From NCBI GenBank assembly GCA_035764935.1, contig DASTYK010000075.1, positions 1-37,939 of the forward strand: a stretch of DNA of 37,939 bases, written 5' to 3'. The stretch is from Longimicrobiales bacterium (GTDB lineage Bacteria; Gemmatimonadota; Gemmatimonadetes; Longimicrobiales; RSA9). Below, in pieces: positions 382 to 13,138 of the stretch (position 1 is its first letter; each line of letters starts with the position of its first letter). The notes under the pieces are model-generated. The model was given only the letters and a program-made list of their open reading frames with translations, did no database searches and was not told the origin of the DNA. Made by a program: the position numbers and the translations under genes.

Positions 382-990
382 ATGGATTACCCAGGCAGAG
401 ACGGCTGGGTGGAAGTCATCAGCGGCGTCATGTTCAGCGGCAAGTCCGAGGAACTGCTGCGCCGGGTCCGACGTGCCACCCTGGCCCGGAAGTGCGTCCA
501 GGTCTTCAAGTCACACCTGGACGAACGCTACGGCGGACTTGGATTTGTAAGCACACACGACGGCGGTCGGATCGAGTCCGAGCCGGTCTCGACATCCGCG
601 GAGATCGCGGAACGTGTTCGGGGCGATACACAGGTCGTGGCGATCGACGAGGTACAGTTCCTCGATAGCGGAATCGTCGCCGTCGTGTCGGAGCTGGCTG
701 ACCGGGGCGTACGCGTGATCGTCTCGGGAACCGACATGGACTTCCGGGGGGAGCCGTTCGGCCCGATACCTCAACTGCTGGCCATCGCCGAGAAGGTCGA
801 CAAACTCTACGCGATCTGCGTCGTCTGTGGGCAACTGGCAACCCGGAACCAGCGCCTGATCGACGGCAGGCCCGCGCCTGCGGAAGGGCCCACGATCCAG
901 GTCGGTGGGACCGAAACGTACGAGGCGCGGTGCCGCAATTGCCACGTCGTACCCAGCCGGGATCGCGCGCAGATTCGACTTCTTGACTGA
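382..990 (+). CDS. tdk: thymidine kinase (type II, bacterial/human TK1 fold)
   Basis: This cytosolic salvage enzyme phosphorylates thymidine to dTMP with ATP. The 202 residues match the usual length of the family. A P-loop GVMFSGKS is at residues 15-22. The Walker B region IDEVQF has D89 and E90, the glutamate being the expected catalytic base. The C-terminal lasso region carries four zinc-binding cysteines in two CxxC pairs, C146/C149 and C184/C187. The ATG at 382 is used because the P-loop then sits at the normal distance from the N-terminus; no strong ribosome site is visible. The gene reads in the same direction as the methyltransferase operon 62 bases downstream and might be co-transcribed, but functionally it looks unrelated. 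Confidence 0.96.
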
Positions 991-1052: not shown

Positions 1053-4000
1053 ATGCAAGACTCCATGCGCGCGGCGCTGCAGGCCTGGAAGGCAGGGGAC
1101 ACCCAGCCGCTCATCGAACTCCTCGGCTTTCGCCCCGAAGCCGGCGCAACCAGTGAGGCGATTGCCACGATCGGGCGTGCCGGTACGACGAGCGCCGTCC
1201 TGCTTCGCTGCGAGGCTTCGGAGGCGCCTGCCGTTGCCAGGACCGTTCGGGCCCGCGACGGCATCCGCCAGCACCTCTTCATCATCCGCACGCCGGACCC
1301 TGACCGCCTCGAGCTGATCGCGTTCCGGCCGGACGGCGAGCCATGCCGGCTCGCGGCAGGAATAGACCAGATCCGGCCCGCCGACCTGGACACCCTGCGT
1401 GAGATGGCATCGGAGGGCGAGGTGGGCATTGCGCTCTTCCTGAAGCACCTTCGTGCACTCGATCGACGTCGTGTAACGCGCCGATTCTTCGAGGCGTTCC
1501 GCGCCATGCGCTCCCGTGTTGCCGCGGAGTGGACCGGTGTTCCCACGACTCGCCGCCGCGAGCGCGAGCGCCTCGCGCTGCTGTTTCTGTCCCGACTGAT
1601 GTTCCTCTACTTCCTGCAGCGGGAGGGCCGGCTTGCCGGTCGCACAGACTATTTCCGTTGGTTGCGCGGCAGGTATGCCCGCCTCGGCACGGAGCGCAGC
1701 TTCTATCGGGCGGTCCTGGTCCCGCTCTTCCACGGTGCGCTGAATCGCCGCCCCGCTCATCGCACCGGGCCAGCGAGACGACTCGGACGCCTGCCGTACC
1801 TCAACGGGGGCCTGTTCGAGCGGGATCCACTGGAGCATCGCTACAAGGGCCTGGACCTGCCGCTGCCGGTAAGCGATGCCGTGTTCGATGAGCTGCTGGA
1901 GCGCTACCGCTTCACGACCCGCGAGCATGCCGCCACGCTGGGCGAGGGCGGCGACGGCGCCGTGGATCCGGAGATGCTGGGCAGGGTCTTCGAGGGCTTG
2001 ATGGACAGTGACGAGCGAGGTCGCACCGGCACGTTCTTCACCCCGGCACCTCTCGTCGACGAGGTCGTCCGTCACGCGCTCGCCGCGCGCATCGCCGACC
2101 GTTGCTCCGTTGCTGCGGATACGGCGCTGGAGTGGCTCGGCCGTCCCGAGACGGCACCATCCGCGGCGACCGAAGCGATCAGCGGCATACGCGTCCTCGA
2201 TCCGGCCTGCGGCTCGGGCGCGTTTCTGCTCGGCGTGCTCACACGCATCGCTTCGTTGCGCTCGGGGAGCACCCGACAGCCCGATCTGCAGCAGATCGTT
2301 GGTGAGGCGCTGCATGGCGTCGACCTCCAGGATGATGCCGCCCTGCTGTGCGCACTTCGCCTCTGGCTCGCCCTGACGGCCTCCGCCGGTCGCAGGACGC
2401 CGCGACTTCCCAACCTGGAGCGTCGAATCCGGCAGGGTGACGCGCTGCTCGATCCGCTGGATCTGTGTGTGACCCCACGGGGCGCGCAATCGCTGACACG
2501 GGCACCGGACCCGCGGCTGCGCAAATCGATCAACGAGCTGTCCGCCGCGGCGCGCGCTTTCCTGACGGCTGAACCCGCCGACAAGCGGTCGCTCGCGCAT
2601 GCGATCCAGCACCTGGAACGACAGGTCGCCGAGCACTGGGCGGACACACACCTTCAACGCCTTCACCGTGCCGAGCGCGAGCTGCGCGTAACACTCGATT
2701 CGCCCGACCTGTTCGGTCAGCGAGTCTCACCGCGACATCCGCTCCAGCATGATCTCGTCGAGATCCGGCGTCAGATGAAAGAAGCGCGCGCCCTGCAAGC
2801 TCGCCTGCGCCGCCGCGGGAACCTCCCGTTCTTCAGCTATGTCGTTCACTTCGCCGATGTGATGCCGGACGGCTTTGATGTCGTCGTGTCCAATCCACCA
2901 TGGGTGCGCGCGCACAAATGGCCCGCCTCGACCGCGGCGCTGGTGCGCGAACGCTACGCGACCTGTGCGTCGCCTGGATGGGAGTACGGCGCGCGTGCTG
3001 TCGGGGTGAGCCGCGGCGTCGGTGCGCAGGTCGACCTCGCGCTGCTGTTCCTCGAACGCGCAGTCCGGGTGCTCGCCTCGGGTGGAGTCGTCGCGATGCT
3101 GCTTCCGGCCAAGCTGCTGCGCTCGCTCTATGCCGCGGGAGCACGTCGACTGCTGCTCACGGAGACTGACGTGCTGCGCATCGAAGATCGCAGCCTCGAT
3201 GCGCGGACGGGCTTCGATGCGGACGCATTCGTCGTCACGATCGTCGCACGGCGAAAGCACGCACGCGATCTCGGGCAAGCCCGTGTTCAGGTCGTGATGC
3301 ACCGCGCCAACGCTCCGCGTATGCAATGCTCGCTCAGCCCCGGTGAGCTCCCGTTGATCGCGAGTGACGTGGACGCTCCCTGGCTGATCGCGCCGGACGA
3401 GGTGCGACCAATCCTGCGCCGCATGCAGGAGGCGGGCGCGGCAATCGGCAGGCATTCCGGCGTACGGATTCGTCGCGGAGTAATGACCGGGGCGAATGAC
3501 GTGATGCTGCTCGAACAGGTGGAGCACGTGCTCGGCGGCCTTGCGCGGGTCCGCTCTCAAGGATGCCGTGGTGCCGAAGACGAGTTCAGTGCTACGATCG
3601 AGAGCGATTGTATTAGACCGGTGCTGCGCGGCGCGGACGTACGCGCCTGGCAATGCACACCGTCGTGCCACGTCATCTGGCTCTACGATCAGCACCTGCG
3701 TTTGCGGCATCCTCCCCGACACACACAGCGCTACCTCGAGCGCCACGCGGAGCGGCTCGGCAAACGGCCGGGCAACGCGGCGCACGGTGCGCTCTTCCGT
3801 CTTTCGGGAGCATTGCTCGAGAGCATGGTCGTATGGCGGGACATCGCGCCTTCACTTCAGGCTGCAGCGCTCCCGCGCTGTGACGGGCGGCCTGTGCCCC
3901 TCAACTCGGTGTATTTCATCAGCGTCGGCCGCGACGATGACGCGGCATTGCTTCTCGCCGCGTACCTCAACTCGCTGCCCGTTCGCGTCTTCGCCCGCAC

Positions 4001-4256
4001 GGTCGCCGAGCGTGCCAAGGACGGATTCTTCCGGTTCTTTGCGTGGACCATTGCCGTGACGCCGCTTCCACGGTCATGGAGGCAGGACACTGCACGTGAG
4101 CTGATTGCCCTGACCCGGGCTGCTCACACTGCGGGTGCTGCGCCGGACATTCTCTCCCGCATCGATGCCGCAGTCGGCGCCGTGTACGGGCTCACCTCTG
4201 AGGATCTGGCCACACTGCGGCAGTTCGATGCATGGCTGTCCGGCGAACCGAGATGA
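1053..4256 (+). CDS. Eco57I-type N6-adenine DNA methyltransferase of a restriction/defence operon
   Basis: This large protein (1067 aa) is predicted to methylate adenine in DNA using S-adenosylmethionine. The SAM-binding motif I, DPACGSGAFLLG, is at about residues 383-394, preceded by a GTFFTP segment near 325-332 typical of Eco57I-type enzymes. The catalytic motif IV, NPPW, is at 614-617. The C-terminal third has a GVMTGANDV segment and a late LNSLPVRVF region, like the TaqI-type specificity domain that reads the target sequence. The first ~150 residues show no PD-(D/E)xK nuclease motif that I can see, so this appears to be a methylase without its own nuclease. The stop overlaps the next start (ATGA, 4253-4256), giving tight translational coupling. 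The family is clear; the role in defence is inferred from its neighbours. Confidence 0.9.
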   Translation: MQDSMRAALQAWKAGDTQPLIELLGFRPEAGATSEAIATIGRAGTTSAVLLRCEASEAPAVARTVRARDGIRQHLFIIRTPDPDRLELIAFRPDGEPCRLAAGIDQIRPADLDTLREMASEGEVGIALFLKHLRALDRRRVTRRFFEAFRAMRSRVAAEWTGVPTTRRRERERLALLFLSRLMFLYFLQREGRLAGRTDYFRWLRGRYARLGTERSFYRAVLVPLFHGALNRRPAHRTGPARRLGRLPYLNGGLFERDPLEHRYKGLDLPLPVSDAVFDELLERYRFTTREHAATLGEGGDGAVDPEMLGRVFEGLMDSDERGRTGTFFTPAPLVDEVVRHALAARIADRCSVAADTALEWLGRPETAPSAATEAISGIRVLDPACGSGAFLLGVLTRIASLRSGSTRQPDLQQIVGEALHGVDLQDDAALLCALRLWLALTASAGRRTPRLPNLERRIRQGDALLDPLDLCVTPRGAQSLTRAPDPRLRKSINELSAAARAFLTAEPADKRSLAHAIQHLERQVAEHWADTHLQRLHRAERELRVTLDSPDLFGQRVSPRHPLQHDLVEIRRQMKEARALQARLRRRGNLPFFSYVVHFADVMPDGFDVVVSNPPWVRAHKWPASTAALVRERYATCASPGWEYGARAVGVSRGVGAQVDLALLFLERAVRVLASGGVVAMLLPAKLLRSLYAAGARRLLLTETDVLRIEDRSLDARTGFDADAFVVTIVARRKHARDLGQARVQVVMHRANAPRMQCSLSPGELPLIASDVDAPWLIAPDEVRPILRRMQEAGAAIGRHSGVRIRRGVMTGANDVMLLEQVEHVLGGLARVRSQGCRGAEDEFSATIESDCIRPVLRGADVRAWQCTPSCHVIWLYDQHLRLRHPPRHTQRYLERHAERLGKRPGNAAHGALFRLSGALLESMVVWRDIAPSLQAAALPRCDGRPVPLNSVYFISVGRDDDAALLLAAYLNSLPVRVFARTVAERAKDGFFRFFAWTIAVTPLPRSWRQDTARELIALTRAAHTAGAAPDILSRIDAAVGAVYGLTSEDLATLRQFDAWLSGEPR

Positions 4257-4813
4257 GGTTGCACGCGCCCGGCCTGGTCGTGATATCCGGTGCTGCGGAA
4301 CCGGAGCTGATGGAATCCACGATGCGAGACCTGCTGGCTGCATCGTCCGACGTGGCGCTGGCCGTGGAGCATGTTCGTCTGCCGTCGCTGCACCGCGTCA
4401 TCGATGTGCTGGAGCACGTCGGTCACTGTCGCATGGCACTCGCGCGACTCGAGCTGCACCACCTGGGCATCGGCCCTCGGCCGGATGGTGCGGACCGCAA
4501 GGGCGTCGAGCGACTGCTGGCCTACGCAGCCAGCGGCCGGCTCGAGATCCGGTCCGCAGGTGCGATGCGCTGGGATCCTGATTTCTCGCTGTTCAGGATG
4601 GCGGATCGACGCTGCGGCACGTTTTGCCTGTTCGGTGCACACTACCTTGCACCGCCGCATCCCGGGCTGGACTGGCCGCTTACATGCCTGCTCACCCGAC
4701 GCGCCGCCGTCAGGCGAGTGGCAGCTCATTTCGAGCAGCTGTGGGACGCAGCCCATGATGTGCTCGGACCGGTTGTGGAATCGCTGGAGCGGGAGCTCTG
4801 CGGTTCACGCTGA
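4253..4813 (+). CDS. PLD-like domain protein, apparently without catalytic residues
   Basis: A 186-residue protein starts at the ATG that overlaps the methyltransferase stop. An in-frame ATG at 4232 would add seven residues and is less likely. The overall pattern resembles the N-terminal PLD-type domains of phage-defence helicases: alternating strands and helices, a late FSLFRMADRRCGTFCLFG strand pair where the HxK motif normally lies, and a closing FEQLWDAAH helix. The HxK(x4)D catalytic signature itself is absent: at the expected place the sequence reads FSLF. This points to a structural or DNA-binding role, perhaps as a detached N-terminal domain of the helicase that follows 14 bases later. 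The family assignment is by eye and uncertain; the protein could belong to an unrelated small family. Coupling to both neighbours makes it part of the same system. Confidence 0.7.
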   Translation: MRLHAPGLVVISGAAEPELMESTMRDLLAASSDVALAVEHVRLPSLHRVIDVLEHVGHCRMALARLELHHLGIGPRPDGADRKGVERLLAYAASGRLEIRSAGAMRWDPDFSLFRMADRRCGTFCLFGAHYLAPPHPGLDWPLTCLLTRRAAVRRVAAHFEQLWDAAHDVLGPVVESLERELCGSR

Positions 4814-4827
4814 CTCCGCCGGCCGAA

Positions 4828-7362
4828 GTGTGGTCGATTCTCGCGCGGACCCTCATCGGTCCGCAGGACCATGCCCCGGATGGCCAGCGGCTGCCGCTCA
4901 CGCGCCTGCAGGAGGAGGGCGCCCGACGAGCAATCGGGATCATGACGCGGTACGGCGGCGTGATCGTCGCCGACAGCGTCGGCATGGGAAAGACGTTTGT
5001 CGCGCTGCGAATGGTCCGGGACGCGCTCGCGCGTGACTGGAACATCATCGTCGTCGTTCCTGCAACACTGCGACGGAAGTGGTGGGCAGCGCTCGGATCC
5101 GCTGGTGCTGCTCCGCAGATGGCGCCTCCGGCCGGGCAAGCCCCTGCGAGTCGCGTCATTCTCACATCCCATGCGCGCGTTCATCATCTCGGGATTGCTC
5201 GCGATGACCGGCCGCGCCTTGTAATCGTCGACGAGGCCCACCAGTTCCGGAACCCGCGCACCGCCCGGTATCGTGCGCTGGCACGGGTTACGGCCGATGC
5301 CCACGTAGTGCTGCTGACGGCCACACCGATCAACAATCGTGCTGCGGACCTGTACTGGCTGCTGCGGTTGTTTCTGGGTGACGGCGCCCTTGCCGGAGTG
5401 GGTGTGCCCGATCTCAGAGCCGCTCTGCTCGAGTCGGACTCGCGGGACGATGCGCTCATGCGACGCGCAGCGGCAGCAATCGTCGTGCGCCGCACGCGCG
5501 CGGACTGGGCTCGCGCCGGCGAAGATAATGTCGCAAACGTCCGGTTCCCCCGGCACCATCCGCCGCGCGCCGTGGCATACGAACCGGACATGGATGAGTT
5601 GGGCCTCCTCAGCTCCATAGAGCAATCATTGCCGCGACTGCGGCTCTCCGCGTTCGAAGTGCCGCGCCGGCATATGCACCGCGCACCGGGAAGCACCGCG
5701 ATGCTCGTGCGCTTCGGGCTGCTGAAGCGGGCCGAGTCCAGCACGGCTGCGCTCCGCGAGTCGCTTCTGCGACTCCTGCGGTTCCTGGATGCGTTTGCCG
5801 ATGCCGTTGCGTGCGGAGGGTACATCCGCGCAGGGGACATGCGTGAGCGCGATGCGCTGCAGCTCGCATTGACGGCACTGGTCGCACGACCGCTGCCCCG
5901 CTCCGCTGACCGCGCAGCCCTGCACGAGGACGTGCTCCACGACAGCGAACTCGTCCGGCAGATGCTCGCAGCCGTTCCATCCGGCGTTCCGGCCAAGCTG
6001 AGAGCACTGCGCGCACTGCTGCGGGAGCTGGACGACTCCAGGTGTGTGGTTTTCACGGAGTACACTGAAACGGCGGAAGCACTGTTCACTGCACTGCCGC
6101 GTGCTGGTACTGCACTGCTGCACGGAACCCGTGCAGCGGTTGCGAGCGGTGCCGCCAGCCGCAGGTCGGTCCTGGAAGCCTTTGCCCCCATCGCCTCCGG
6201 CTGCGCCTCGCCGCAGCTGCACGAGCGCATCCAGACCCTGATTGCGACTGACGTCCTCGCCGAAGGACTCGACCTCCAGGATGCGAACCACTGCATCAGC
6301 TACGACCTGCCCTGGAACCCCGTCCGGCTGATGCAGCGGGCCGGTCGAATCGACCGGCTCGGCTCGCCTCACTCGGACGTGTACGTCTGGTACTTCCAGC
6401 CGCGCAACGAGATCGAACGGTGGATCGGGCTCATGCGGCGGCTGCGCGGAAAGGTCGAAACCATCGCGCGCGCCGTCGGCGCAGAGCACGGAGTCGTCGG
6501 CGAAGGAGACGGCGAGGGCAGCGCAGCGCCCGGAGCCATCGTCGCGGCAGCCAGCGAGGTCACCCCGGAGAAGCGAATTGGCGCACGACGCGGAGCGGCC
6601 GGTGCTGAGCACGACGATGCCGTCCTCAGGATGTTGGGTGCATTGCTCGATCGTGTCGCGCCGCATTCCCCTGAACGCCGGCAAGCGTGCGACGTGGATG
6701 TGACAAAGTCGGCCAATCCCGTGAGAGGCGCCGTGATCGCCATCGACGCCAGTGTGCTCGACGACCTCGTCGGAGCATGCGGCCAAAGCGCGGCCCACCT
6801 GCCCGAAGATCGTGACGCCATGCCCGGCACGCGCCCGGTTCCGCACGTTGATCGCCTGCTGCTCGTTCGGCGCGAGGCGGGTGACGGCGCATGGGTCGAC
6901 TGCCTCGCGCTGCGTACGAGCGATGCGGGCAGGCCCACGATGCTTGACCCGCCGTCCACCCTGCGGATGACGCTCCGCCTGGGCGAGTTGCTCGCCGCAG
7001 GACGATGGTCGCAGCCGGACGGTGGCGTCGCACTCCTGCCGGCTGCGTGCGAGACAGTCGGCGCAGCCGCCGACGTGGTCAACCGTGACCCCGCCGCCCG
7101 GGCCGTGGCCGATCGGATCCGGTCCGTGCTCCTCCGCAGCGGTGGCTCGGCCGACCCGGTCAGCCTGGCGCGGGCCGATCGGCTGCTGCAATGCCTGGAG
7201 CCCGGGGTTCCTGCCGCTACCGCGAACGCGCTCGCAACCCTCCTCCGACGTTCCGGCCAGTCCGATCTCGGGCTCCTGCTCGACCGGCTCGAGACGCTGC
7301 TCCCCTCAGGGCGCCGCCCGCGCGTCACGGTCGCGTTGCTCATCTGCGCCCGCAACGGATGA
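4828..7362 (+). CDS. SNF2/RapA-type DEAH helicase of a restriction/defence operon
   Basis: An 844-residue ATP-dependent DNA translocase. Walker A is DSVGMGKT (residues 49-56), the DEAH box is at 135-138, and motif III, TATPINN, is at 164-170. Helicase-C motifs V and VI appear as ATDVLAEGLDLQ and QRAGRIDRLG (503-512). The order and wording fit SNF2 superfamily 2 enzymes of the RapA/DrmD sort. The last ~270 residues match nothing I recognise. The GTG at 4828 is the first standard start after an in-frame stop. The preceding sense codons read LRFTLTPPAE, so a CTG at 4810 is a possible alternative. Helicases of this group often carry a PLD domain fused at the N-terminus; here the small upstream gene may supply it. 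Confidence 0.9.
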   Translation: MWSILARTLIGPQDHAPDGQRLPLTRLQEEGARRAIGIMTRYGGVIVADSVGMGKTFVALRMVRDALARDWNIIVVVPATLRRKWWAALGSAGAAPQMAPPAGQAPASRVILTSHARVHHLGIARDDRPRLVIVDEAHQFRNPRTARYRALARVTADAHVVLLTATPINNRAADLYWLLRLFLGDGALAGVGVPDLRAALLESDSRDDALMRRAAAAIVVRRTRADWARAGEDNVANVRFPRHHPPRAVAYEPDMDELGLLSSIEQSLPRLRLSAFEVPRRHMHRAPGSTAMLVRFGLLKRAESSTAALRESLLRLLRFLDAFADAVACGGYIRAGDMRERDALQLALTALVARPLPRSADRAALHEDVLHDSELVRQMLAAVPSGVPAKLRALRALLRELDDSRCVVFTEYTETAEALFTALPRAGTALLHGTRAAVASGAASRRSVLEAFAPIASGCASPQLHERIQTLIATDVLAEGLDLQDANHCISYDLPWNPVRLMQRAGRIDRLGSPHSDVYVWYFQPRNEIERWIGLMRRLRGKVETIARAVGAEHGVVGEGDGEGSAAPGAIVAAASEVTPEKRIGARRGAAGAEHDDAVLRMLGALLDRVAPHSPERRQACDVDVTKSANPVRGAVIAIDASVLDDLVGACGQSAAHLPEDRDAMPGTRPVPHVDRLLLVRREAGDGAWVDCLALRTSDAGRPTMLDPPSTLRMTLRLGELLAAGRWSQPDGGVALLPAACETVGAAADVVNRDPAARAVADRIRSVLLRSGGSADPVSLARADRLLQCLEPGVPAATANALATLLRRSGQSDLGLLLDRLETLLPSGRRPRVTVALLICARNG

Positions 7363-7420: not shown

Positions 7421-7493
7421 TCCCGCGTAGCTCAGTTGGTAGAGCAGGTGACTGTTAATCACCGGGTCAGAGGTTCGAGTCCTCTCGCGGGAG
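7421..7493 (+). tRNA. tRNA-Asn (anticodon GTT)
   Basis: The 73 bases fold as a standard tRNA. The acceptor stem is TCCCGCG with CGCGGGA, and the D arm has AGCTCAGTTGGTAGAGC. The anticodon loop CTGTTAA gives GTT, and the T arm is AGAGGTTCGAGTCCTCT. The discriminator base is G, as expected for asparagine tRNA. The CCA end is not encoded, since the next bases are CT. No second tRNA follows. Confidence 0.97.
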
Positions 7494-7515
7494 CTACATA
7501 ACGACGCGGCTTTTC

Positions 7516-7672: not shown

Positions 7673-11274
<3,602 letters not shown>

Positions 11275-11278
<4 letters not shown>

Positions 11279-12951
11279 CGCCCGGCTCCTGCAGCGGGAA
11301 GGAACACGTTGTACGGCAGTGGATCCAGCTCGCCGATCATCTCGATCGCGTGGACCGGGCACTGGCGGGAGCACGTCGCGCAGCCCGTGCATCGGTCGTA
11401 ATCGAATGCATACCGCTGCCCGGCACCGAGCTTGACGATCGCGTCCTCCGGGCAGGAGCCGAGACAGCCATCGCACTCGAAGCAGTTGCCGCAGGAGAGG
11501 CAGCGCCCTGCCTCGAACTCCGCTTCCGATGCGGACAGCCCGGCCATCACCTCGTCGAAACTCCTGACCCGCGCCGCCGGATCGAGCGCCTCCTGTTCGC
11601 GACGTGCATGGTCGCCGAAATACCAGAGGTTGAGCCTGTCGAGACTGACTTCGGGATGCCTGGGTCGCGGCTGATGGACGCGCCCGCGCAGCCATGCGTC
11701 GATGTTACGCGCGGCTTTTTTGCCGTGACCGACACCCACGGTGACGGTGCGCTCGCTCGGCACGGCATCGCCGCCTGCAAAGACACCGGGCGCGCCGGTC
11801 ATCAGTGTCGCCGGATCGACCTGCACGACGTCACCGTCGAAATCGATCCCCGGCAGCGCGGCGAGGAAGCGGGTGTCGCTCTCCTGGCCGAGCGCGAGGA
11901 TGACCGTGTCGGCCTCGAGCGTCTCGAACTGGCCGGTCGGTCGGGGTTTGCCTTTTTCGTCGAGCTCCTGGATCTCGACCGTGAGGTCGCCCGCGCCCAT
12001 CGATGCGATCGTGCGCAGCCAGTTGATGCGGATGCCCTCCGCCTCGGCGTCGCTCGCCTCCTCCTCCTGCGCAGGCATCTGCTCGCGCGTGCGCCGGTAG
12101 ACGATGATCGTGTCGTCCGCGCCGAGCCGGCGCGCGACACGCGCCGCATCCATCGCGGTGTTGCCACCACCATAGACCGCGACGCGGCCGAGCGAACCGG
12201 TACTCTCACCGGACTCGACACCGCGCAGGAAGGAAACCGCATCGAGAATGCGGCCCGCGTCCTGGTTGGGGATGTCCACGCGCTTCGACAGGTGCGCGCC
12301 GACTGCGACGAAGGCCGCGTCGAAAGCGCCGCGCTCGATCTCGGACTGCAGGTCCGTCACGACGTGGCGCTGCTCGAACTGAATGCCGAGGTCCCCCAGC
12401 CGGGCGATCTCCGCGTCGAGCACGCCGCGCGGAAGGCGGTAACTCGGGATACCGTACCGCATCATTCCGCCGGGAAGCTCGCTGTTGTCTCGGACGACCA
12501 CGTCGTGACCCAGCATGCTCAGGTGGTACGCGGCGGAAAGGCCGCTCGGCCCGGCACCAACGACGAGAACGCGCTTGCTGGTCCGGACTGGCGGGCGGAC
12601 GAACGTCCAGCCCTTCTCTATCGCGAGGTCGCCCAGGAACCGCTCGACGGAATGGATCGAGACCGCGCCGTCCATGAATCCGCGGTTGCAGGCGGTCTCA
12701 CACGGGTGATAGCAGACGCGACCGTGGATCGAGGGGAACGGGTTGTCCGCCGTGAGCTGGCGCCAGGCCGCCTCATGATTGCCAGCCTTCGCGTGCGCCA
12801 GCCACGCCTGGATGTTCTCACCGGCCGGGCAGCCGGCGTTGCAGGGCGGCAGCAGATCGACATAGACCGGCTTCTGCGTCCGGACCGGTCCGGCTCGGCG
12901 CCGGCCAGATCCCAGCGATGACAGTGGAGCGATATCCCGCTGCTCGTCCAT
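11275..12951 (-). CDS. GltD-like FAD/NAD(P)H oxidoreductase with ferredoxin-type Fe-S domains
   Basis: A flavoprotein of the glutamate synthase small-subunit family (558 aa). Conserved cysteines near the N-terminus (CNAGCP at about 37-42 and CYHPCETAC at about 80-88) bind Fe-S clusters. An FAD-binding VVGAGPSGLSAAYHL segment follows at about 130-144, then a second Rossmann motif, VYGGGNTAMDAARVARRLG, for NAD(P)H. The C-terminus adds a ferredoxin-like domain with CLSCGNCFECDGCLGSCP and CTGCATCSRQCP. No GltB subunit is nearby, so glutamate synthase is unlikely. Fusion to extra clusters and the ATGA overlap with pyruvate:ferredoxin oxidoreductase suggest that it moves electrons between ferredoxin and NAD(P)H. 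A GGAGG lies 9 bases upstream of this ATG; a GTG one codon earlier is equally possible. Confidence 0.9.
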
Positions 12952-13138
12952 CACGACGCACCTCCACCGGCGGTTGGGACATCCACGGAATCGCTGCTAT
13001 TGCATGATAGTCCGCCGCGATTGGCTGCCTAGGGAGCAATGGCCTTCGGCGCGCCGGTCTGCCGCTTACGCCGTGTGGGGCCTTTCCCTGCCGGACACTT
13101 TCCTGCTGGCGCGGCCTGACCTCGAGCGTGGTGGCTTG

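Follow-up and report, generated by a model that had tools for sequence, protein, structure and literature searches.

The locus studied here raises the question of whether an adenine methylase, a small PLD-like protein and a SNF2 helicase, encoded side by side, constitute a defence system of their own. A preliminary description proposed a minimal methylation-based exclusion system with a different effector logic, or a relative of type IIG/helicase restriction units. The window, the whole 37,939-nt stretch of DNA analysed, is contig G000:C75 of a 3.83 Mb genome in 195 contigs (96% complete), whose nearest named relatives, in a scan with the methylase alignment, are Gemmatimonadetes metagenome bins. 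Our preferred reading, which we hold to be evenly balanced between right and wrong, is that the trio is a nuclease-dead form, passed on vertically, of an RM-like system that is widespread and pairs a type IIG-like adenine methylase with an HKD(PLD)-Snf2 helicase. The architecture, the fold, the loss of the HKD motif, the fixed address, the co-inheritance of methylase and helicase, and purifying selection are established.

Organization of the locus

The three open reading frames described previously were confirmed (Table 1). Together with tdk they are co-directional and point to tRNA-Asn(GTT), and the ATGA overlap between the first two is present. The 14-base gap reported in front of the helicase exists if GTG 4828 is the start codon and vanishes if translation begins at CTG 4810. 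In L024, the helicase homologue starts inside a GTGA overlap (GTGACTCCGC), and the window carries the counterpart of this start at 4810 (CTGACTCCGC). Judged from these aligned sequences, CTG 4810 may be the true start of the window helicase, overlapping the PLD stop codon, and the gap is perhaps not real. Further along, on the minus strand (7673-12954), genes for a 2-oxoacid:ferredoxin oxidoreductase and a glutamate-synthase-like flavoprotein with ferredoxin motifs were recognised by eye and point to ordinary metabolism.

Table 1. Coordinates of the trio and its borders in the window.
Feature	Position	Strand	Remark
tdk (thymidine kinase)	382-990	+	Pfam TK E 2.5e-49; left border of the fixed address
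Type IIG-like N6-adenine DNA methyltransferase, 1067 aa	1053-4256	+	
ATGA, methylase stop overlapping the PLD-like start	4253-4256	+	
186-aa pseudo-PLD protein	4253-4813	+	PLD fold predicted, HKD lost
CTGA, candidate 4-base overlap of the PLD-like stop and a CTG helicase start	4810-4813	+	homologous to GTGA in L024
SNF2/RapA-type translocase, 844 aa from GTG 4828 (850 aa from CTG 4810)	4828-7362	+	
tRNA-Asn(GTT)	7421-7494	+	right border of the fixed address

Methylase and helicase motifs are intact

The methylase had been called an Eco57I-type adenine methylase, and this assignment stands: it matches the Eco57I methylase family (PF07669, E 9.3e-14), and motif I (DPACGSG, residue 383) and motif IV (NPPW, residue 614) are both intact. 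The Eco57I-type N6-adenine methylase core is a type IIG feature, and the type IIG profile is also the best match in PADLOC (118.6 bits, versus 69.1 bits for DrmMI). The PglX models of BREX score 53 and 43 bits on the window, below their cut-offs of 400 and 500. The helicase is of the SNF2 type, as described (Helicase_C, E 6e-18; SNF2, E 4e-11), with the motor motifs GMGKT, DEAH, TATP, and QRAGRIDR intact. Its best NCBIfam model is DrmD, at 143 bits with a cut-off of 610; the PADLOC DrmD model gives 118 bits.

The placement of the methylase in the type IIG group by PADLOC profiles would suit conventional restriction, in which the trio cuts unmethylated DNA by means of a divergent nuclease hidden in the methylase N-terminus or the helicase C-terminus, or acting in trans. 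A model of the methylase N-terminus (pLDDT 78) yields DrdV, a type IIG enzyme, as a weak, non-significant top match (E 0.017), along with resolvases, and no match below E 0.001. The motif (D/E)xK does not occur in the 1067 residues of the methylase, and across 12 relatives the first 130 positions contain neither an acidic residue nor a lysine that is conserved throughout. A type IIG nuclease in the methylase N-terminus was rejected for lack of a motif. The missing motif and conserved residues, and a PLD protein that lacks HxK, make conventional restriction improbable in our view.

The 186-aa protein is a pseudo-PLD by its predicted fold and motifs

Searches of Pfam, NCBIfam, and PADLOC gave no usable family match for the 186-aa protein, and PDB sequence searches with the protein or its profile of 20 relatives returned nothing or noise such as phycocyanin. 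An AlphaFold model built on the alignment of these relatives (pLDDT 86.8) matches PLD-superfamily structures with a probability of 1.0. All its significant PDB matches have the PLD fold: TrmBL2, the NgoAVII R protein, SauUSI, FAM83, Zucchini, and Nuc. The top match, TrmBL2, is a chromatin protein of archaea whose fold is PLD-like; FAM83, among the best matches, is itself a pseudo-PLD.

The label PLD-like is thus appropriate for the fold and fails for a recognisable nuclease, as the HxK of the catalytic HxK(x4)D motif of PLD nucleases is absent from the window protein. Where active relatives have HAKAYIFD ... GSSNLT, its family has W.P[DN]F[ST]VF ... G.H[WYF]. An active PLD nuclease was rejected on the absence of HxK, so that, as far as its motifs and the model tell, the protein is a pseudo-PLD and not recognisable as a nuclease. 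Since HxK is missing here and (D/E)xK is missing from the methylase, no nuclease appears recognisable in the trio, a weaker claim than that no nuclease is present.

The PLD-like domain, a separate gene in the window, is joined to the helicase N-terminus in two sister genera (G143 and G283). In addition, the window PLD profile matches the HKD domains of helicases from outside the window's clade, with E values down to ~1e-11. By these sequence comparisons the 186-aa protein began as the N-terminal domain of the helicase and is now separate and catalytically dead.

Many related methylase-helicase pairs carry an HKD nuclease motif

Scanning 84,980 genomes with the methylase alignment yielded 80 loci from many phyla, and where enough flanking sequence was available, the methylase usually adjoins a SNF2 helicase on the same strand. 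A regular-expression test on the 61 helicases found detected HKD and GSSN motifs in 36, none of which belongs to the window's clade; the rest include the 20 members of that clade (three of them, L041-L043, on contigs of the window's own family, f1) and several more that are cut by contig ends. In relatives outside the clade, the helicase next to the methylase bears HAKAYIFD...GSSNLT at its N-terminus. The methylase and helicase trees agree, with f1, L044/L045/L058/L061, and the HKD clades recovered in both; the two proteins are co-inherited. That a homologous methylase adjoins a homologous SNF2 helicase in relatives bears out the kinship to type IIG/helicase restriction units suggested earlier. 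The notion of a free-standing minimal system gives way to kinship with a widespread methylase + HKD-Snf2 pair, whose helicases PADLOC labels C3a139 'HKD+Snf2' and whose methylases it labels REase_MTase_IIG.

HKD-form pairs cluster distant phyla, Planctomycetota with an archaeon and Verrucomicrobiota with Chloroflexota. The main HKD-less clades are specific to Gemmatimonadota or Acidobacteriota, with neighbours common within each. PIN, HEPN, AbiEii, IrrE/HTH or OLD-TOPRIM genes often sit inside or next to HKD-form pairs, and such nested genes are typical of defence loci; in the window's clade none lies between methylase and helicase.

Individual loci show further arrangements. Toxin-antitoxin-like genes (HEPN, PIN, AbiEii, IrrE/HTH) separate methylase and helicase in L080, L104, L115, and L120, and OLD-like ATPases occur at the HKD-form loci L066 and L070. 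In five Acidobacteriota loci (L049, L050, L052, L053, and L055) the methylase adjoins a 540-630-aa helicase without any PLD domain. In Brasilonema (L116, 2964-7565) one 1534-aa frame joins the methylase to the motor-bearing C-terminal half of the helicase, through either a fusion or a deletion.

The trio occupies a fixed address

Recurrence of the trio in other genomes had been set as a check. We sampled 12 f1 genomes; since these are drafts or assemblies from metagenomes, an isolated loss may be a gap in the assembly. The full trio is found in seven, with the PLD gene separate in G000 (the window genome), G147, G286, G299, and G300 and fused in G143 and G283. Gene order is constant in all seven, with open frames and undamaged methylase motifs; recurrence on this scale is far beyond chance. 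Purifying selection acts on each of the three genes in the one pair compared, G147 versus G300, with dN/dS ~0.2. Another f1 genome, G301, has the methylase and helicase and no PLD match, G051 has the PLD gene only, and none of the trio genes was found in G084 or G298. The parts are separable because G301 lacks the PLD gene while G051 and the sister family f2 have it alone. In G006 the PLD gene is intact, while the motif I region is missing from the methylase and the first motor motifs (the Walker A part) from the helicase; this locus (L022, 4108-10321) may reflect decay or an assembly error.

The address in f1 reads tdk-MTase-PLD-helicase-tRNA-Asn. Where the PLD gene is missing beside tdk, no tRNA-Asn lies within ~1.5 kb of that tdk locus, and the 'empty' ancestral site is therefore unreadable there. 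In its behaviour the trio resembles not a mobile defence island but a chromosomal locus that stays in place and is inherited vertically.

The sister family retains an orphan pseudo-PLD gene

The PLD gene is present in 38 f2 genomes of the sample and, at a profile threshold of E 1e-6, was not found in the phylum outside f1 and f2; G039, G270, and G282, which gave E ~1e-4 in a single-sequence search, disappeared at this threshold and were dropped. The f2 address reads tdk-PLD-tRNA-Asn (L132-L158), the methylase and helicase being gone. The tRNA-Asn gene lies 3' of the PLD gene in 26 of 27 f2 loci, and tdk lies upstream, within the fetched flank, in 16 of the 27. Genome-wide, a methylase of this kind is missing at E 1e-30 from 26 of 28 f2 genomes with the PLD gene, and in the remaining two, weaker and incomplete matches turn up on other contigs. 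The f2 orphans group together in a single clade (support 100/100), and dN/dS of ~0.09-0.3 between close pairs indicates purifying selection. G165 and G226 each have a broken copy of the gene, and f2 genus g9 has none.

The simplest account would be that the common ancestor had the trio at this address and that f2 lost the methylase and helicase once and kept the pseudo-PLD. A possible extension, which we propose tentatively, is that the split-off pseudo-PLD was domesticated, in f1 as a subunit of a nuclease-free methylation/translocation complex and in f2 as a lone new DNA-binding or regulatory protein between tdk and tRNA-Asn, where it is under purifying selection.

Defence systems are seldom confined to one address and inherited vertically, which counts against the RM-like reading, as does the separability of the parts. 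Because of the fixed address, the strongest competitor is a domesticated host role: the trio would act on the host chromosome, in epigenetic regulation, nucleoid organisation or repair, and f2 would have kept only the DNA-binding pseudo-PLD. A single copy at the same tdk/tRNA-Asn site across both families, the restriction of HKD-less clades to single phyla, selection on the orphan, and the chromatin protein TrmBL2 as top structural match are all consistent with such a complex. However, its distribution is patchy, with genes absent or decayed in G084, G298, G006, G051, and genus g9 and broken in G165 and G226, and the HKD-bearing relatives resemble defence loci. On balance we regard a host complex as unlikely.

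The same losses could be read as the decay of a former RM-like system that is shedding parts and has no present function: G006 has an incomplete methylase and helicase, both genes are missing in G051 and f2, and the PLD gene is broken twice. Yet open frames and intact methylase motifs persist in seven genomes, and dN/dS is low for the trio (~0.2, one pair) as well as for the orphan (0.09-0.3), which makes a functionless remnant highly improbable.

Proposed mechanism

We infer a defence role for the trio. In the nuclease-dead RM-like variant that we favour, the methylase, given its intact motifs, would mark the host's own sites, and the SNF2 motor would load on DNA without the mark and translocate. 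The pseudo-PLD would no longer cut and, like inactive PLD folds elsewhere, would most likely help the motor to bind DNA or to dimerise. Exclusion might then result from blocking or stripping foreign DNA or from passing it to host nucleases, by analogy with the DISARM core: in DISARM the PLD nuclease DrmC is dispensable, and the DrmAB core is proposed to block or recruit (PMC9142583).

If correct, the loci would line up as natural steps in the history of an RM-like methylase/helicase system: the nuclease is lost, transfer between phyla ceases, the locus settles at one chromosomal site and, in the end, the dead nuclease domain is all that survives. Whether a methylase and a SNF2 motor exclude DNA nuclease-free, as has been argued for BREX and DISARM, would become testable, as would the way in which defence parts become domesticated. 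For annotation there is a caution: proximity to a methylase does not by itself make a PLD-like gene a nuclease or a component of DISARM.

Comparison with known systems

Class 1 DISARM (DrmD, DrmMI, DrmA, DrmB, DrmC) has an adenine methylase, a SNF2 helicase and a PLD-fold protein in common with the window, and the helicase scores best with DrmD models, as a stripped DISARM locus would. The preliminary description was right that DrmA and DrmB are missing from the trio. DrmB (DUF1998/MZB, PF09369) has no match in the 96% complete window genome, and the control search matched 8 of 14 genomes. The DrmA model scores highest on the SNF2 helicase of the window itself (56 bits), with weaker matches elsewhere, and it matches 13 of 14 controls, as expected of generic helicase matches. 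DrmA and DrmB are the core of DISARM, and the DrmD and DrmMI scores are far under cut-off or under that of type IIG, respectively. Membership was rejected on these grounds; the dead PLD protein, derived from a helicase N-terminus, is a further difference. We give a stripped DISARM hardly any credence.

Type-2 BREX-related (BR) systems, which are defined around DUF499, combine an N6-methylase with an HKD-Swi2/Snf2 helicase (PMC12839542). The methylase and Snf2 helicase set resembles that of the window, but the DUF499 ATPase is theirs alone: PF04465 has no match in G000, G147, G286, or G300, and membership was rejected.

SauUSI and the NgoAVII R protein are active HKD enzymes. Both restriction PLD nucleases are close structural matches of the window PLD fold, and SauUSI carries its PLD on an SF2 motor, but neither has a type IIG-like methylase partner of the window's kind. 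Type IIG and type ISP enzymes share with the window a gamma-type adenine methylase with a TaqI-like target region, and ISP enzymes have a motor (PMC3874165); in the window, by contrast, the methylase chain lacks a nuclease motif and the motor resides on a separate SNF2 protein. HKD-SF2 helicases are also described in Dnd-linked and CxC systems (PMC10853773), and ARMADA and its relatives have been reported (PMC12458937).

The closest counterpart is the methylase + HKD-Snf2 pair, in which a homologous methylase and helicase are adjacent and co-inherited, as in the window, and the helicase N-terminus is homologous to the window's PLD protein. The window differs in that HKD is lost, the PLD is a separate gene, no toxin or OLD genes are nested, and the address is fixed. 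In the open-access literature we found no paper naming the plain pair or its HKD-less form, which is not proof that none exists. The parent pair is already covered piecewise by database models (C3a139, REase_MTase_IIG), and NCBIfam NF042964, a phospholipase D-like anti-phage protein, is a weaker relative.
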